Positions 4,278-43,736 of a DNA stretch of 44,445 nt are shown piece by piece (within the stretch, counting starts at the first letter, position 1; the number at the start of each line of letters is the position of its first letter). The DNA comes from an uncultured Bacillota bacterium (lineage in GTDB: Bacteria; Bacillota_I; Bacilli_A; RF39; UBA660), in assembly GCA_946625165.1 (NCBI GenBank), contig CAMOSR010000004.1:1-44445 (forward strand), read 5' to 3'. The position numbers and the translations under genes were made by a program. Below the pieces are notes generated by a model, which saw only the letters and a program-made list of their open reading frames with translations, ran no database searches and was not told the origin of the DNA.

Positions 4278-5282
4278 ATGATTCAAAAAAATAGAGATAA
4301 AAGAAATTATGTAATTGGATTTTTATTAATACTAGTATTATTTATGACAGTGGGATTTGCAGCATTTAATACACTACTTACAATAAACGGAACAGCAAGT
4401 ATAGCAAGTAGTTGGTGTGTTGGATTTGATAATAGAAATACTTCGGCTTATGAGGTAACAAAAGGAGTAGCAAGTGGAACAAATCCGACAGCCTCAATGA
4501 CATATTCAGGAACGGCATGTAGTTCATATTATGTTCCAAACTCTACATTAACAGCTAATTTTTACCAACCAGGTGATAAAGTAGAATATACACTTACTAT
4601 AGTCAATAAAAGTAATATGACAGCAGCTATAGAAAGTATAGAAGTAAACGGAAGCAGTGTAACAAGTAATCAAACGATAACAGACGGAAATATAATATGG
4701 AAAGTATATATGCCAGAAGATACAACCTTAGCAAGTAATGCAACTACAACAATGAAAGTATCAGCAGAATTTCAAAATACAACTAATATAGGAAATATGT
4801 CATCAGGGGAAAGCAGCAGTCTAACAGTCGGAGTAAATGTAGTTCAAGATGATGGAAATGGGGGAATGGATATTACTCCATCAGCTTTTTCGGGAACTTT
4901 ATATGCAATAAATACAAATGAAATTTATAAAGACTCATCAAGATTACAAGACATAGGAACAACTTATAATTCATGTTTAGCTACAGGAAAGAATGTATGT
5001 TTAAAATATACATTAGAAGATGATGTAGTAATAGGTTCAGAAGTGTGTTTTTTATATAATAGTACTGAATATTGCTTAGTGGGAGCAGATGAAGGGGAAG
5101 CATTTAGTACTAATCAAAGTACACTAACAACAGCATTTGGTTCGTGCAATTTTGAGCCAATGGGTTTTGTATGTTTTTCTAGTCCTTGGCATGTTTCCAT
5201 GGATGATAATGATGATGTGCTTGTTACCAATGATAGTTGGAGGTGTCATGTCTTTGGTAGCGGCGATTCATATTGTGGATAA
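4278..5282 (+). CDS. TasA/camelysin-like exported protein with Cys-rich pilin-like C-terminal region
   Basis: MIQKNRDKRNYVIGFLLILVLFMTVGFAAFNTLLTINGTASIASSW...YQPGDKVEYTLTIVNKS; shares N-terminal and QPGDKV motifs with proteins at 33979-38615; eight Cys in the last ~120 aa. Confidence 0.7.
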   Translation: MIQKNRDKRNYVIGFLLILVLFMTVGFAAFNTLLTINGTASIASSWCVGFDNRNTSAYEVTKGVASGTNPTASMTYSGTACSSYYVPNSTLTANFYQPGDKVEYTLTIVNKSNMTAAIESIEVNGSSVTSNQTITDGNIIWKVYMPEDTTLASNATTTMKVSAEFQNTTNIGNMSSGESSSLTVGVNVVQDDGNGGMDITPSAFSGTLYAINTNEIYKDSSRLQDIGTTYNSCLATGKNVCLKYTLEDDVVIGSEVCFLYNSTEYCLVGADEGEAFSTNQSTLTTAFGSCNFEPMGFVCFSSPWHVSMDDNDDVLVTNDSWRCHVFGSGDSYCG

Positions 5283-33978: not shown

Positions 33979-34554
33979 ATGAGTGATAAAAACAAGAATA
34001 TTGTTATCGCAGTTTTATTGGGAGTTTTGGTTGTGATGGCTGTAGCTTATGCAGCATTTAGTACGACATTAAATATTAATGGTACTGCAACAATTAAATC
34101 AAGTTGGAATGTAGCTTTTGATACTACAAAAACTACGACTGCTACAGGTGTTGTAACACCTACAACAGGGTCTGGAGGAACAACTGCTCCAACTGGTACT
34201 GTTTCATATACTGATGGACAACATGCTACAGTGTCAGCTGATTTATATCAGCCAGGTGATAAAGTAGAGTTTCTTTTGACAGTTAAGAATACTGGTAGTT
34301 TGAAAGCAACACTAGGTTCACTTAGTATTTCTTCAAGTACTGGATGTACAGTTTCATCTTTAACTTGTACAAGTACTGCGGGTCATATTAAATTTACTGT
34401 AGGTAATTTTTCATCTGCTACTTTAAATGCTTCTAATGGAACAGCTACTATTAAAGTGACTGCCGAATTTGTTAATGGTGCAGTTACAAATTTAAGTGGT
34501 AACGAAAGTGCTTCTATTACAGTATCATTCACTGCTACTCAAGCAACTAGTTAA
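33979..34554 (+). CDS. TasA/camelysin-like exported subunit 1
   Basis: MSDKNKNIVIAVLLGVLVVMAVAYAAFSTTLNINGTATIKSSWNVAFDTTKT...YQPGDKVEFLLTVKNTGS. Confidence 0.75.
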   Translation: MSDKNKNIVIAVLLGVLVVMAVAYAAFSTTLNINGTATIKSSWNVAFDTTKTTTATGVVTPTTGSGGTTAPTGTVSYTDGQHATVSADLYQPGDKVEFLLTVKNTGSLKATLGSLSISSSTGCTVSSLTCTSTAGHIKFTVGNFSSATLNASNGTATIKVTAEFVNGAVTNLSGNESASITVSFTATQATS

Positions 34555-34614
34555 TAGTTACTTTAAGTTGTTGGTGATTAAAATTAAAAAAAATTAAGAT
34601 AGGGAGAAAGTTAT

Positions 34615-35184
34615 ATGGGAAATAATAATCATAAAAATGCAGCAATTGCAATGTTATTAGGTGCTTTAGTTGTAATGGCTGTAGCTTATGCAGCGTTTAG
34701 TACAGCGCTTACAATAAATGGTACTGCAACAATTAAATCAAGTTGGAATGTAGCTTTTGATACTACAAAAACTACAGGAACTGGTGTTATTACGCCAACT
34801 ACAGGAAAATCTGGTGGTACTGCACCAACTGGTACAATTTCATTTGCTGATGGTCAAAATGCGACTGTATCTGCAAATTTATATCAACCAGGTGATAAAG
34901 TTGTATTTACTTTAACAATTAAAAACACTGGTAGTTTGGATGCGACTTTGGGAGCTCCAACTGTAACGGCTGTTAGTGGTTGTACAGTTTCAGCTAAAAC
35001 TTGTACAAGTACTAATGGTTATCTAAAATTTACTGTTAGTAATCCTGCAAGTACTTCTTTAGAAAAAACTTCAGGAACTACTACAATGACAGTAACTGCT
35101 GAATTTCCTGATGTTGCAGTTTCAAGTTTAAGTGCTAATCAATCTGCTTCTATTAGAGTTTCTTTAACTGCTACACAAGCTTAA
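34615..35184 (+). CDS. TasA/camelysin-like exported subunit 2
   Basis: MGNNNHKNAAIAMLLGALVVMAVAYAAFSTALTINGTATIKSSWNVAFDTTKT...YQPGDKVVFTLTIKNTGS; near-duplicate N-terminus of subunit 1. Confidence 0.75.
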   Translation: MGNNNHKNAAIAMLLGALVVMAVAYAAFSTALTINGTATIKSSWNVAFDTTKTTGTGVITPTTGKSGGTAPTGTISFADGQNATVSANLYQPGDKVVFTLTIKNTGSLDATLGAPTVTAVSGCTVSAKTCTSTNGYLKFTVSNPASTSLEKTSGTTTMTVTAEFPDVAVSSLSANQSASIRVSLTATQA

Positions 35185-35194
35185 TAATGTATTT

Positions 35195-35222
35195 GAAAGG
35201 CTATCAATGATGGCCTTTTTTC
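35195..35222 (+). terminator. Intrinsic terminator after subunit 2
   Basis: AAAGGC-tatcaatgatg-GCCTTTTTT. Confidence 0.7.
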
Positions 35223-35251
35223 TTGACAAAAATGATATATTTTTTTATAAT
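35223..35251 (+). promoter_or_regulatory. argS T-box promoter
   Basis: TTGACA, 17-nt spacer, TATAAT. Confidence 0.75.
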
Positions 35252-35261
35252 ATGGTTAAAG

Positions 35262-35457
35262 TGATGACGAAGGAATAGTAATAAGAATAAATATTTATAG
35301 TGAGTTAGTGGTTAGTGGAAACTAATAGTATTTACTTATGAACGCGCCTTTTAAGCTTGAACCGTTTATCTGCGTTAAAGATTAAAGAGCATAGAAATTC
35401 TATGAAGTAAGGTGGTACCGCGGGTATTTCTCGTCCTTATTTTGTGGGATTTTTTTA
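35262..35457 (+). promoter_or_regulatory. T-box riboswitch leader, Arg specifier (CGC), upstream of argS
   Basis: GAA-CGC-GCC specifier context (CGC 35343-35345), AAGGTGGTACCGCGG T-box motif, run of T at the end. Confidence 0.92.
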
Positions 35458-35477
35458 TTATTTTAAGGAGGTATAGA

Positions 35478-37163
35478 ATGTATAATAAACTAGAAAGTAT
35501 TTTAAATGAGGCTTTTAAAAAATTAGGGTATGAGATAGAGTCTAAAGTTGTAAGGTCTAAAGAAGATTTTGTTGATTTTCAGTGCGATAATTTATTTGGC
35601 CTTGCTAAAGTTTATCATAAGTCGCCTTTATTAATAGGTGAGGAGGTTGTAGGTAAAATCAAAAAGTTATCTGATTTTTCTTATTATTTTAAAAGTGTGG
35701 AAGTAGCTAAACCAGGGTTTATTAATATATGTGTGAGTGATAAGTTTATAAATGAGTCTTTGAGAGGATTAATAGGTAGTGATAGACTAGGATGTACTGA
35801 AGAACATGACACAATAGTTATTGATTATGGAGGACCTAATGTAGCTAAGCCTTTACATGTTGGACATTTAAGGACCGCGATAATCGGACAAGCAATTTAT
35901 AATATTTTAAAATTTAAAGGTAATAAAACTATTAGTGATGTACACTTGGGAGATTTTGGACTGCAAATGGGTCAAGTTATATACGGACTTTTACATGATT
36001 ATCCTAATACTAAGTATGAGGATATGGAATTTGACTTAGATTATTTAAATAGGACGTATCCAAGGATAAGTGCTTTATGTAAGGAAGATGATAATGTCAA
36101 GGAAGAGTGCCATAGAATAACAAAAGAACTTCAAGATGGAAAAGAAGAATATGTGTATTTATGGAAGAGGATAATGAAAATTTCTGTTGATGATATTAAG
36201 AGAATTTATAAATATTTATCTGTAGATTTTGATTATTGGTATGGTGAAGCTGATGCTTATAAATATTTTGATGAGATGATTCCTTATATAGAAAGTAAGG
36301 GAATTGTTAGGGTAGATGATGGAGCGAAAATAATAGATGTTAAGGAAGAAACTGATAAAGTTGATGTTCCACCTTTGATTTTGCAAAAGAGTGACGGCGC
36401 TTATTTATATAGTACGTCTGATTTAGCGACTATTTGGCAAAGAAAAAGGGATTTTGATCCTGATGATATTATATATATTACTGATGATAGGCAAAGCTTA
36501 CATTTTTTGCAAGTTTTTAGAGTGGTGAGAAAAGCTCTTATTTATGAAAAAAGGTTAGAGCATCATGGTTATGGAACAGTAAATGGAAAAGATAATAAAC
36601 CTTTTAAAACGAGAAGTGGTGGAGCGTTAAAACTTGAGGATTTAATTAATGAGGTTAAAGAAGAATTTGTAGATTTAAGGGAAGAAAATAAGCATATGGA
36701 TAAGGAAGACTTGGATAAAATTGTAAATGCGATTATTAAGTTTGCTGATCTTCAAAATGATATGTCGAGAAATTATATATTTGATATTAAGAAATTTAGC
36801 GAGGTTAATGGTAAAACAGGTCCTTATATTTTATATACTTATCTTAGAATTAATAAGTTGCTTTCTAATAACAATGGTAAATTATCTGATAATATATATA
36901 ATGATGTCGATAGAGCTTTAAGGCTTAAATTAATAGACGTTTCAAATGTTATAGATCAAGCGGCAAGGGAAAGAAAACCTCATTATATTGCTAATTATTT
37001 ATATGAATTATCGGTGCTTGCAAACAGCTTTTATGTAGAAAATAGGGTGGCAGGAATAGCTGATGATGTTAAAAATGATTATGATATTGTTTTATCATTT
37101 AATAATAAGGTTACAGAAATTTTATTGTCACTTTTAGGCATTTACATTCCGAGGTCTATGTAA
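35478..37163 (+). CDS. argS: Arginyl-tRNA synthetase
   Basis: DYGGPNVAKPLHVGHLRTAIIGQAIYNIL; start at ATG 35478 after AAGGAGG. Confidence 0.96.
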   Translation: MYNKLESILNEAFKKLGYEIESKVVRSKEDFVDFQCDNLFGLAKVYHKSPLLIGEEVVGKIKKLSDFSYYFKSVEVAKPGFINICVSDKFINESLRGLIGSDRLGCTEEHDTIVIDYGGPNVAKPLHVGHLRTAIIGQAIYNILKFKGNKTISDVHLGDFGLQMGQVIYGLLHDYPNTKYEDMEFDLDYLNRTYPRISALCKEDDNVKEECHRITKELQDGKEEYVYLWKRIMKISVDDIKRIYKYLSVDFDYWYGEADAYKYFDEMIPYIESKGIVRVDDGAKIIDVKEETDKVDVPPLILQKSDGAYLYSTSDLATIWQRKRDFDPDDIIYITDDRQSLHFLQVFRVVRKALIYEKRLEHHGYGTVNGKDNKPFKTRSGGALKLEDLINEVKEEFVDLREENKHMDKEDLDKIVNAIIKFADLQNDMSRNYIFDIKKFSEVNGKTGPYILYTYLRINKLLSNNNGKLSDNIYNDVDRALRLKLIDVSNVIDQAARERKPHYIANYLYELSVLANSFYVENRVAGIADDVKNDYDIVLSFNNKVTEILLSLLGIYIPRSM

Positions 37164-37181
37164 AATAACCAAGTCTAAAAT

Positions 37182-37226
37182 GGAAAATCAAAAAAAAGAG
37201 AAATTTTTCTTTTTTTTTGATTTTCC
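37182..37226 (+). terminator. Long A/T-rich hairpin terminator after argS
   Basis: GGAAAATCAAAAAAAAGA-gaaatttttc-TTTTTTTTTGATTTTCC. Confidence 0.7.
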
Positions 37227-37228
37227 CC

Positions 37229-37257
37229 TTGAACTTAACTCAAAAAAATGATATATT
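37229..37257 (+). promoter_or_regulatory. Promoter of third TasA-like gene
   Basis: TTGAAC, 17-nt spacer, TATATT; ATGATATATTAGTA also present at the 33.94-kb promoter. Confidence 0.6.
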
Positions 37258-37310
37258 AGTAACAGAGTAGAGATAGGCTACTTGAAAATATAATAAGGAG
37301 GAAGAAAGAA

Positions 37311-37919
37311 ATGGAATCTAAGCACAAGAATGCGTTAATAGGAGCATTATTAGCAGTAGTATTTGTTATGGCAGTAGGTTATGCAGCTTTTGCAACTACT
37401 TTAACAATTAATGGTACTGCAGAAATCACTACTAGTTGGGATGTTCACTTTACTGGTGATACAGAAGCTGTTACAGCTACTCCAGGAACTGGTGGAACAC
37501 TTACTCCTAGTGGAACAATTGCTTTTGATACTGATAAGCTTGTTGCAACTTTAACTGCTGATTTAAAACAACCTGGTGATACTGTTGTTTACACTTTAAC
37601 TCCACACAACTATGGTACAGTTACTGCAACTGCTGGAACACCAGCTGTTACAATTGCTAAAGCTTCTGCACCAACAACTGCATTAAACGCTGGAGCAACT
37701 TCATTTACTGTTGGACATATTCAGTATACTGTAGAATTTACTAAAAAGCCTTCTATCGCTGCTGATCAAGATGACAACGCTATTACTGTAACTGCAACTT
37801 ATACAGCTACTGATGATGGTGAAACAGTTCAAGAACAAACTGGCGGAATTGCTAATGCAGAGAAAAACAACGGTGAAGCTGCTGTACTTAAAGTTACATT
37901 AGTTTATTCACAAGCTTAG
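37311..37919 (+). CDS. TasA/camelysin-like exported subunit 3
   Basis: MESKHKNALIGALLAVVFVMAVGYAAFATTLTINGTAEITTSWDVHFTG...KQPGDTVVYTLTPHNYG. Confidence 0.75.
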   Translation: MESKHKNALIGALLAVVFVMAVGYAAFATTLTINGTAEITTSWDVHFTGDTEAVTATPGTGGTLTPSGTIAFDTDKLVATLTADLKQPGDTVVYTLTPHNYGTVTATAGTPAVTIAKASAPTTALNAGATSFTVGHIQYTVEFTKKPSIAADQDDNAITVTATYTATDDGETVQEQTGGIANAEKNNGEAAVLKVTLVYSQA

Positions 37920-37923
37920 TTGT

Positions 37924-37961
37924 GTAAAATAAAAAACTGCATATGCAGTCTTTTATTTTAC
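37924..37961 (+). terminator. Intrinsic terminator after subunit 3
   Basis: GTAAAATAAAAaaCTGCATATGCAGtcTTTTATTTTAC. Confidence 0.75.
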
Positions 37962-37980
37962 ATAAAAACTAAAAAATGTC

Positions 37981-38009
37981 TTGATTAAGTTTGAAAAAAA
38001 TGATATAGT
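37981..38009 (+). promoter_or_regulatory. Promoter of fourth TasA-like gene
   Basis: TTGATT, 17-nt spacer, TATAGT. Confidence 0.5.
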
Positions 38010-38048
38010 TTTATTAGAGTAGAAAGCTGTCTATAAGGAGGAATAAAA

Positions 38049-38615
38049 ATGGAAGCAAGACATAAAAACATACTAATTATGGCTTTGATAGCTATTGTTT
38101 TGATAATGGCGGTTGGATATGCGGCATTTACAACAACACTTACTATTAATGGTACGGCTGAAATTTCAACTAAATGGGATATTCATATAAAATCAATTAC
38201 GCCTTCAGCAACTGCTACGGCAACAACTCAAGGTGGAGAGACTGTTTATACTAGTGCCGGAAGTATAAAACATACTATAAAGGACAATTATACAGCTGAA
38301 TTTGAAGCGGTACTTTTGTCACCATCTGAGTACGTAACATACACTGTGGTAGTTGAAAATAGTGGAACTATTAATGCTAAAGTAGCACCTAATGGTATTA
38401 CTTTTAGTGACGCGACTATGGGTACTACTAATCCGACAGATGCAATATTATTTACTTATGAAGGAATTGCTCCTGGTGATCAGTTGAATGCTAATGGTGG
38501 AACTGATACATTCACTGTAACAGCTACATATAATCCTGCAATTACAAGTCAGCCATCAGCTGCGCAACTTGAAAAATCAGTTACTATGACTTTGAACTAT
38601 ATTCAAACAGCTTAA
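38049..38615 (+). CDS. TasA/camelysin-like exported subunit 4
   Basis: MEARHKNILIMALIAIVLIMAVGYAAFTTTLTINGTAEISTKWDIHIKS...LSPSEYVTYTVVVENSG. Confidence 0.75.
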   Translation: MEARHKNILIMALIAIVLIMAVGYAAFTTTLTINGTAEISTKWDIHIKSITPSATATATTQGGETVYTSAGSIKHTIKDNYTAEFEAVLLSPSEYVTYTVVVENSGTINAKVAPNGITFSDATMGTTNPTDAILFTYEGIAPGDQLNANGGTDTFTVTATYNPAITSQPSAAQLEKSVTMTLNYIQTA

Positions 38616-38632
38616 GACTTAAGCTGTTTTTG
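38605..38632 (+). terminator. Intrinsic terminator overlapping the subunit 4 stop codon
   Basis: AAACAGCTTAA-gac-TTAAGCTGTTTTTG. Confidence 0.75.
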
Positions 38633-38678
38633 TGTTTTTATAAATTTGTGTAAAACTAAAAAAAAATTTTTAAAATTA

Positions 38679-38707
38679 TTGTAAATTACGATATGTTATG
38701 CTATAAT
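38679..38707 (+). promoter_or_regulatory. Promoter of the signal peptidase / DUF5305-like operon
   Basis: TTGTAA, 17-nt spacer, TATAAT. Confidence 0.5.
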
Positions 38708-38761
38708 TTATTATAGTAGTGGATAGTGTATGAGAAAGCTGTTCACAAAAGGGGTTATAGC

Positions 38762-39904
38762 ATGAAGAAAAATTTTATAATTTATAGTCTTCTCATTGGT
38801 TATGTGCTCCTTGACACTTTTGTTTTTAGTTCATTGAATTTGCCTTATTATAATGAGATTATAAATCCTGCACTTTGGATAATGATGTGCGGAATATCAA
38901 TATATTTAAGTCAAGATTCAAGTTTAAGAGTTAAGGGAGAGAAGGACAAAACCCAAAGTTTATTAATTGTACTTATTATTTATATCATTATATACTTTTT
39001 GCTGGGTTTAATCTTTGGTTTTGAGAGGACACCTTATTCAAAAGAAATATTTGGCATTTTAAAAAATTTGTGGTCTTTTATTGGAATTTTATTTTTCCAA
39101 GAATTTATAAGAGAAGCATTGATTAAAAATGAAAAGAAGAAAAAAATTAATTATATTTTGATTGTAATAGTGTTTACACTACTTAATATGAATTTCTATA
39201 ATTTTGCTAATCATTTTGCTGATTTACAAACATCATTTACTTATACTTCGTCAGTGATAATTCCAACTATACTTGAAAGCGCAATTTTAACTTATTTGGT
39301 GTATATAGGCGGTGTTAAATTTTCCATCATATATCGAGCGTTTGTCGCTATACCACCATTTATAGTTCCAATTATCCCTGATTTGGATTGGTTTGGTTTG
39401 GCACTTGTTGGAGTTGTGCTACCACTTGCAGTATATGTTTATATGAATTATGTACATGTAAATCGTACTGAAAGACTTTCAAAAAGGGAAAGACGTAAGT
39501 ATAATCCGGCAGTTTATGTCCCTGTGTTTGCATTTATTGCTTTACTTGCTGGGTTTGTTATTGGACTGTTTAAATACCAACCAATTGCTGTGATGTCTGG
39601 TAGTATGTCACCAACGTTTAACAGAGGAGATGCAGTTGTTATTAAAAAACTTGATACTCAAGATAAAAATGAACTAGAAGTTGGAGATATAATTCAGTTT
39701 GTAAGCGGAACTAAATATGTTATCCATAGGATAGTTGATGTCACTAATGATGATTATGGCAATAAACTATTTATCACAAAAGGTGATCATAATAATACAA
39801 TTGATATTGACAAGGTTCATTTAGAAAATGTAAAAGGAAAGGTAACGTTTGTTGTACCATTTATTGGTTATCCATCAGTATGGCTTAGTGGTGCAATTTC
39901 ATAA
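38762..39904 (+). CDS. SipW/ER-type signal peptidase I (S26B) with N-terminal multi-TM region
   Basis: C-terminal VMSGSMSPTFNRGDAVVIKK...KYVIHRIVDV...ITKGDHNNTID (Ser/His/Asp pattern); ~275 aa hydrophobic N-terminal part. Confidence 0.85.
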   Translation: MKKNFIIYSLLIGYVLLDTFVFSSLNLPYYNEIINPALWIMMCGISIYLSQDSSLRVKGEKDKTQSLLIVLIIYIIIYFLLGLIFGFERTPYSKEIFGILKNLWSFIGILFFQEFIREALIKNEKKKKINYILIVIVFTLLNMNFYNFANHFADLQTSFTYTSSVIIPTILESAILTYLVYIGGVKFSIIYRAFVAIPPFIVPIIPDLDWFGLALVGVVLPLAVYVYMNYVHVNRTERLSKRERRKYNPAVYVPVFAFIALLAGFVIGLFKYQPIAVMSGSMSPTFNRGDAVVIKKLDTQDKNELEVGDIIQFVSGTKYVIHRIVDVTNDDYGNKLFITKGDHNNTIDIDKVHLENVKGKVTFVVPFIGYPSVWLSGAIS

Positions 39905-39921
39905 GAAGGGGAGAATAATGT

Positions 39922-41043
39922 ATGAAAAAACAAAAAGATGAAAATAAGATTATTTTGAAACAGTGGGTAAGGGTATTTTTGCTAATTGCTGTTATTGCGA
40001 TTATGGTAGTATCAATTTTCTCAGTTGTTAAAGCCATAAAACCTGATGTGAATACTAGAAAAAAACTATATTCTTATAATTATAATACTAGTATGGATTA
40101 TAGGGTATATTTAAAGAATAATAACTTCTTTAATGTTCCTTATTTAGAAATGAATAGGCAATATATCTCTTCAATTATTGATCATATTGAAGTTGATGCT
40201 AAATATGATTTCCAAAGTACTGAAGATTTAGCGTATAGTTATAGCTATTCACTTATAGCTACAGCTAGAGGTATGGGTGAAGATTCTGATGGTAAGAAGG
40301 TAGATGTTTGGTCAAAAGAATATCCTATTTCTAATTTAGAATCTAATAATGGTACTGGTAAAAACTTTAATATTGCTAAAACTGTAAATTTGGATTACAA
40401 CGCTTATAATCAAATTTTAAGCGATTTCCGTACGCAATTTGGACTTTCAGTGGATGCGCGCGTTGATTTAACTTTCAATGTTAATGTTATGGCAGGTCTT
40501 CCTGGAGAAGCTGAAAAAACATTAAATGAAAGTTATAAAATGGATTTACAATTCCCATTATTAGTACAAACTTTAAGAGTTAGACCAGATTACGTTAATA
40601 CTGGCGGAGATACAATTTATGGAAGTACTAGTAGTGAGAAGGGCATGAATATTCCAATGCTTGCTATAAGTCTTGTGGTATTATGTGTTTCATTAATTGT
40701 TTTTGTTAAATTAGTTAAGAGTTTACTTGCTGTTACAAGAAAATCTGAATATATTTTAGCTGTTAATAAGATAATGAAGGAATATGGCGACATAATTGCT
40801 GAAACTCACAATATGCCAGATTTAAATAAGTATGATGTTGTTAATATTAAGAGTTTTGCTGATATGGTTGATATTGAAGAAGAATTACACTCACCAATTA
40901 TTTACTTCGAAATTGAAGAAAATGCTAAATGTGTATTCTTAATCTTGAATGATAAAACCGCTTACCGATTCTTGCTAAAAGAATCTGACTTCGATCATTT
41001 TGGTAATTCCAATGATGATAGTGAAATGAAACGTTTTGTTTAA
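39922..41043 (+). CDS. DUF5305-like membrane protein
   Basis: N-terminal TM WVRVFLLIAVIAIMVVSIFSVV, beta-rich middle with YNYNTSMDYRVYLKNNNFFNVPYLEMNRQYISSIIDHIEV, second TM IPMLAISLVVLCVSLIVFVKLV. Confidence 0.65.
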   Translation: MKKQKDENKIILKQWVRVFLLIAVIAIMVVSIFSVVKAIKPDVNTRKKLYSYNYNTSMDYRVYLKNNNFFNVPYLEMNRQYISSIIDHIEVDAKYDFQSTEDLAYSYSYSLIATARGMGEDSDGKKVDVWSKEYPISNLESNNGTGKNFNIAKTVNLDYNAYNQILSDFRTQFGLSVDARVDLTFNVNVMAGLPGEAEKTLNESYKMDLQFPLLVQTLRVRPDYVNTGGDTIYGSTSSEKGMNIPMLAISLVVLCVSLIVFVKLVKSLLAVTRKSEYILAVNKIMKEYGDIIAETHNMPDLNKYDVVNIKSFADMVDIEEELHSPIIYFEIEENAKCVFLILNDKTAYRFLLKESDFDHFGNSNDDSEMKRFV

Positions 41044-43358: not shown

Positions 43359-43736
43359 ATGAAAAAAGGTTTTACACTGGTGGAGTTACTTGCAGTAATA
43401 GTAATTTTAGGCATACTTGGTTTAGTTGTTTATCCATCTGTTATAAGTGTTATAAAAGATGCAAGAGATAGTGCTTATAAAAGCCAGGTAAAGGTAATAG
43501 AAAAAGCATCTAAAGAGTGGGGTGTTGAACATCCTAATAATTTGCCTGAAATTGATAGTGCTACTTCAGTATGGATATCTGTAAGTAAGCTTATTAAAGA
43601 TGGTTATATAAGTAATGATGATGTGGCAAATCCTAAAGGTGATATAAAAAATATGAATGGATGTGTGGAGGTAAAATATGAATCCAACCAGTATACATAT
43701 AGTTATAAGCCTGAGTGTCCGAGTTTACAAAAGTAG
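43359..43736 (+). CDS. Type IV pilin-like / prepilin N-terminal cleavage protein
   Basis: MKKGFTLVELLAVIVILGILGLVVYPSVISVI: canonical class III prepilin signal. Confidence 0.9.
   Translation: MKKGFTLVELLAVIVILGILGLVVYPSVISVIKDARDSAYKSQVKVIEKASKEWGVEHPNNLPEIDSATSVWISVSKLIKDGYISNDDVANPKGDIKNMNGCVEVKYESNQYTYSYKPECPSLQK

Follow-up and report, generated by a model that had tools for sequence, protein, structure and literature searches.

What do four paralogous secreted proteins make when they are encoded together with a signal peptidase of their own? The question is raised by positions 33979-41043 of the window (the whole 44,445-nucleotide stretch of DNA analyzed here, lying on contig C4 of an 812 kb assembly of 42 contigs that is 74% complete), for which a sequence-only reading had proposed a TasA-like fibre locus. 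We consider it fairly probable that this locus is one of three cassettes making a secreted, non-sortase fibre of the TasA/AbpX kind. All genes lie on the forward strand in the order subunits 1 and 2, argS, subunits 3 and 4, an endoplasmic reticulum (ER)-type signal peptidase and a DUF5305 gene, with argS (35412-37163), a gene not named in that reading, dividing the four subunit genes 2+2:

33979..34554 (+): subunit 1, 191 amino acids (aa), with signal peptide, N-terminal tail and beta-sandwich body (open reading frame, motif, AlphaFold2 (AF2) model, A4 profile 6.6e-46)
34615..35184 (+): subunit 2, 189 aa, 69% identity with subunit 1
37311..37919 (+): subunit 3, 202 aa, 42% identity with subunit 1; the fastest-diverging position between species
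38049..38615 (+): subunit 4, 188 aa, 31% identity with subunit 1; the best-conserved position between species
38726..39904 (+): long ER-type (S26B, Ser-His) signal peptidase (TIGR02228, SEC11C alignment, transmembrane (TM) scan)
39922..41043 (+): DUF5305 protein (PF17231 1e-16, 61.5 bits against a cut-off of 29)

As the sequence-only reading had described, all four subunits begin with a charged start and a hydrophobic segment followed by AAF-x-T-x-L-x-I-N-G-T-A-x-I-x3-W-[ND]-[VI]. QPGD[KT]V is present in subunits 1-3, and SPSEYV replaces QPGDxV in subunit 4. The mature subunits are about 165 aa long, and AF2 models mature subunit 1 with an all-beta body (predicted local distance difference test (pLDDT) 87, predicted template modelling score.81).

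The first evidence for a TasA-like system comes from the site that ends the hydrophobic segment. Among 45 aligned members, P1 is Ala in 41, P2 is aromatic in all 45 (Tyr in 35, Phe in 10) and P2' is a large hydrophobic residue in all 45 (Leu 23, Phe 14, Tyr 4, Ile 3 and Met 1). In TasA both P2 and P2' are aromatic, which hinders an E. coli-type peptidase, and the protein is cut by SipW in B. subtilis (PMC10269814). Judged from the alignment, the cleavage-site chemistry of the subunits is SipW/TasA-like. The ER-type assignment of the peptidase was borne out by TIGR02228, the cut-off of which was passed (1.8e-27, 96 bits, cut-off 51.85), and by alignment with SEC11C (1e-16), in which Ser293, His334 and Asp354 are conserved; against the SipW equivalog NF046067 it reached 1e-21 and 77 bits, short of the cut-off of 190. 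The likely true start of the enzyme is the ATG at 38762. The catalytic domain is preceded by roughly 250 residues in which about seven TM segments are predicted, and a family search with this TM region gave no family. It is improbable that the hydrophobic segment instead keeps the proteins membrane-bound as a surface coat while the S26B enzyme acts elsewhere: a paralogue on contig C7 in which some 165 residues precede the segment, ill-suited to an ordinary signal peptide, and the failure of TIGR04088 to recognize the segment speak for such a coat, while the A-x-A-like site, with P2 and P2' of the SipW type, at which the segment ends in almost every member and the peptidase gene beside subunits in 30 of the 36 loci surveyed below speak against it.

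Cleavage at this site would expose an N-terminal tail in each of the four subunits:

34054..34113 (+): tail of subunit 1, AFSTTLNINGTATIKSSWNV, proposed donor strand (hydrophobic alternation in 45 homologues; no partner strand in the AF2 monomer)
34693-34752 (+): same tail element, subunit 2
37386-37445 (+): same tail element, subunit 3
38124-38183 (+): same tail element, subunit 4

Across the 45 homologues, the hydrophobic fractions from mature residue 6 onwards are 1.0,.04,.98,.09,.91,.13,.80,.07 and.84, continuing with.20,.53,.11, 1.0,.09, 1.0,.22 and.96. This alternation of hydrophobic and polar positions (tail residues 32-48) was equalled by 2 of 20,000 permutations. The tail is also the top-scoring alternation window of the whole subunit, none elsewhere being as strict, and in the AF2 monomer of mature subunit 1 it is unpaired and without strand. 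A tail of about 20 mature residues left unpaired by the monomer model suggests, without proving it, the donor strand expected of such a fibre. The proposal that the conserved strand serves as a donor is supported by its amphipathic pattern and its freedom in the monomer, and gained no support from the weak docking test described below.

The second line of evidence is homology to solved fibre proteins. When a profile built from 46 subunit members was compared with the PDB, AbpX took the top two places (3.5e-6 and 6.1e-5; next match 0.025) with matches spanning most of the subunit domain, and hhalign of the subunit profile against AbpX gave an E-value of 7e-6 and a probability of 84. Against TasA, hhalign aligned only the PGDK...NNGSL stretch, with a probability of 21. 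In reverse phmmer searches of 1,098 proteins, about one tenth of them subunits, the ten best places were all taken by subunits with the AbpX as well as the TasA query (the former a fragment from the PDB match, the latter a sequence checked against 8aur/5of1). AbpX, which forms archaeal bundling pili, is counted among the donor-strand fibres (PMC11952670). By profile comparison, AbpX is the best solved relative of the subunits and TasA a weaker one.

Several results weigh against a fibre of this kind. The search against TasA/CalY (camelysin) families that had been suggested for this locus did not reach the curated cut-offs of Pfam M73 and NCBIfam TasA (PF12389 and NF046066): PF12389 gave at most 13.4 bits in the own genome against a cut-off of 22.5 and touched 10 of the 46 members (best E-value 5e-4), and NF046066 touched one of them (6e-4). 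TIGR04088, the model of the SipW-cognate signal peptide, had no match anywhere in this genome. Foldseek searches of the PDB and of viral models returned weak, generic Ig-like sandwiches (best E-value 3e-3), and TasA and AbpX were absent from the 50 best matches. The proposed relation to fibre proteins of the TasA/AbpX kind is supported by the AbpX match (3.5e-6) and the reverse searches. Part of the sequence signal is supplied by a PGD...N-x-G motif that is common to Ig domains of the DUF11/CARDB type. Finally, in an AF2 read-through construct in which the subunit 1 body, stripped of its tail, is joined to the signal peptide and tail of subunit 2, the second tail remained undocked and without strand (pLDDT 41-45); this test of strand donation is a weak one, the signal peptide being still attached and few alignment rows covering the donor.

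These results bear on an explanation that we regard as unlikely, namely that the subunits are separately secreted, non-polymerising Ig-like surface or matrix proteins of the DUF11/CARDB kind, the peptidase being merely dedicated to them and the tail a linker. Weak matches to DUF11, DUF7507 and CARDB in many members, the ordinary Ig-like sandwiches among the Foldseek matches and the negative read-through test are in keeping with it. A linker, however, has no need to alternate more strictly than every other strand of its protein, AbpX ranks above all other solved Ig-like proteins, and the TasA-like cleavage site is present in 45 of 45 members.

The linkage of subunits, S26B peptidase and DUF5305, for which a neighbourhood survey had been proposed, proved to be conserved. 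The subunit family was found in dozens of genomes, a recurrence that, together with the identities between the paralogues, speaks against chance resemblance. Of 36 long-peptidase loci, most of them from the family to which this bacterium belongs, 33 have DUF5305 as the next gene downstream of the peptidase and 30 have a subunit upstream of it. Ten of these loci contain two or more small subunits in tandem, and in 12 a large protein that bears the signal and tail of the subunits is encoded downstream. DUF5305 is encoded in 23 of the 23 family genomes with a long peptidase and in 3 of the 35 without one (Fisher p = 3e-13 over 58 related, and hence not independent, genomes). Across the class, DUF5305 is otherwise uncommon (22 of 296 genomes), and the long peptidase occurs in 7 of 295 genomes of a phylum sample, all seven from the same family. 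The short-S26B loci (L081-L089) contained no DUF5305 and a subunit-like match in one; two more short S26B genes share stretches with cassettes.

A two-sequence subunit probe of a named genome collection led to five named loci. In both of the nearest named genomes the order is two subunits, an argS-sized gene, two subunits, peptidase and DUF5305; these are the metagenome-assembled genome (MAG) RUG12855, which carries the label uncultured Erysipelotrichaceae, and a MAG of an uncultured Firmicutes bacterium. Since an argS-sized gene occupies that spot only in the window and these two relatives, argS was rejected as a component of the system. A natural counterpart to the window was seen in another genome (L072, 4378-6863), where four small subunits in direct tandem are followed by peptidase and DUF5305. 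Going by the sources that a few MAG titles give, the cassette is probably carried by bacteria of the gut and rumen.

The DUF5305 protein had been described as a two-TM partner, and PF17231 as well as the two predicted TM segments agree with this; its layout is TM, an extracytoplasmic part of about 200 aa, TM and a C-terminal part of about 100 aa. Judged by its linkage, it would be the best candidate for a factor that assembles or anchors the fibre at the membrane, a role like that of TapA or CapP in Bacillus. A literature search over a limited collection found no paper on DUF5305.

The description of four subunits with one enzyme is correct for the locus and understates the genome, which encodes three long peptidases and 13 proteins with the subunit domain. 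Subunit(s), peptidase and DUF5305 form three triads, on contigs C4 (the window), C20 and C19. Lone subunit-domain proteins with a Cys-containing C-terminal extension are present on contigs C1 and C4, the latter within the window:

4278..5282 (+): solitary subunit-domain protein, 334 aa, with a Cys-containing C-terminal extension (A4 profile 4.1e-44)

The extension of this protein had no Pfam match. A further lone protein, on contig C33, bears a DUF285/BspA-type repeat (4e-13), and the C7 paralogue mentioned above (L013, 5366-6349, minus strand) carries its roughly 165 residues ahead of the hydrophobic segment, not an ordinary signal peptide. Contig C32 encodes a lone small subunit together with a collagen-like GPTGPT repeat protein (L012, 342-878), and Tad/type IVc pilus-like genes, recognized by eye, lie about 500 bases from the lone subunit-domain protein of contig C1 (L009, 114-4087, minus strand).

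Whether the four subunits share one fibre or form separate fibres is, in our judgement, about even. Near-identical tails on paralogues with diverged bodies mean that different subunits could join one fibre. Between species, window subunit 4 is 78-79% identical to position 4 of the two relatives and window subunit 3 54-58% identical to their position 3; among the three genomes, identities are 78-90% at position 4, 60-86% at positions 1 and 2 and 54-58% at position 3. Position 4 is orthologous in all three, and the subunit tree contains several open forks. A conserved subunit 4 beside the peptidase and a fast-changing subunit 3 would fit distinct roles. The gap between subunit 4 and the peptidase contains a further sequence feature:

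38605..38629 (+): terminator-like hairpin with an 11 bp stem and T tract (pattern scan, sequence feature only)

Such a hairpin would make the subunit abundant and the enzyme scarce. The possibility that each subunit forms its own homopolymeric fibre, the tandem copies being phase-variable or antigenic alternatives, overlaps with the fibre proposed here and appears to us doubtful. The fast divergence of subunit 3 agrees with it, as do the promoter-like sites close to several genes and the terminator-like sites 3' of subunits 3 and 4 in the pattern scan, while the near-identical tails on diverged bodies are what exchange between paralogues requires, and TasA and CalY of B. cereus co-polymerise (PMC13082335).

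For the secreted fibre that we favour, the following assembly can be proposed. Sec would export the subunits, and the neighbouring dedicated ER-type peptidase, to judge from site chemistry and linkage, would cut them at [GA]-[YF]-A|A-[FL]. This cut would release the amphipathic N-terminal strand L-x-I-x-G-x-A-x-I, which would enter the incomplete beta-sandwich of the next subunit and link the two head to tail. The fibre would be capped or decorated by large proteins that combine this tail with adhesin-like modules.

The large tail-bearing proteins that were examined lack LPXTG and a C-terminal TM segment, and bear List_Bact repeats or glycine-rich, ALK/LTK-type or fn3 domains. Four of them share one architecture with an fn3 domain:

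L143, 3763-6189 (contig C19): large tail protein
L060, 7162-9567: large tail protein
L064, 3198-5525 (-): large tail protein
L094, 5986-8343: large tail protein

Their later part resembles Hint (intein/hedgehog-like) modules, and Cys512 and His582 do not vary among the four. The matches of the C19 protein were all below cut-off (Hom_end_hint 4e-4, intein_Nterm 2e-3, Hint.015), and a PDB search with the Hint-like part found no convincing match; the candidate Hint module is a lead rather than a result. Behind the second triad, on contig C20, the signal and tail and a C-terminal piece that is lectin-like by eye lie in different frames (L014, 7614-8458). This gene looks like the broken remnant of a large tail protein of which intact kin are present in relatives. 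As a long shot, a shared donor strand might plug many proteins, giant adhesin-like ones included, into one fibre on a DUF5305 platform, some ends carrying a self-cutting Hint that forms a covalent bond between the fibre and the envelope or another molecule.

Among known systems, AbpX (PDB 9sj2, 9rhp) resembles the subunits in an N-terminal alternating strand in register with theirs and in a common PG-x-x-V...N-x-G-T-x-A motif, and differs in being archaeal and without a close sequence match to them. Bacillus TasA/SipW/TapA and B. cereus CalY/CapP share the dedicated ER-type peptidase and the A|AF site, and TasA in addition the PGDK...N-G-S motif; TasA fibres use an N-terminal donor strand (PMC9674648). 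In contrast, mature TasA has 234 aa, no TapA or CapP was recognized here, where DUF5305 and a seven-TM peptidase are present instead, and one genome holds 13 paralogues. Clostridium perfringens sipW-bsaABC, which makes SipW-dependent, sortase-independent polymers (PMC7395162), likewise combines a peptidase and several secreted proteins in one operon, with a terminator predicted behind the main subunit gene bsaA (PMC7395162) that is comparable to the hairpin after subunit 4. There, however, the peptidase comes first in the operon and BsaRS regulators are present, and the BsaA model touched 1 of the 46 subunit members (E-value 0.008).

Chaperone-usher and type V pili are assembled by donor strands with alternating hydrophobic residues. 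They differ from the system described here, in which no chaperone, usher or lipobox was seen and the lineage of which is Gram-positive, and they have no homology to it; a comparison of donor-strand assembly is given in PMC9674648. A sortase-assembled pilus was rejected, as all four subunits stop soon after the last strand without an LPXTG-type sortase signal or C-terminal TM segment. Two sortase genes lie on contigs C9 and C3 (L018, L019), neither of which is one of the three cassette contigs. Type IV pilins were likewise rejected, PF07963 being absent from the subunits and found in a separate gene of the window (43359-43736). That gene is type IV pilin-like with an N-methylation motif, and ComGC/GspG-like below the equivalog cut-offs.

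The cassette looks like kin to, yet clearly different from, the Bacillus TasA biofilm fibres and the archaeal bundling pili, and what is new here is the breadth of the system, its link to AbpX, the conservation of the triad and the repertoire of plug-in proteins. If the proposal is true, DUF5305 would gain its first testable role, common tails on unlike bodies would constitute a natural plug-in display system, and the similarity to AbpX would connect the biofilm fibres of bacteria and archaea at the sequence level. A large family of Bacilli with small genomes, apparently living in the gut, would then have donor-strand fibres of the TasA/AbpX superfamily as a main structure of its surface.

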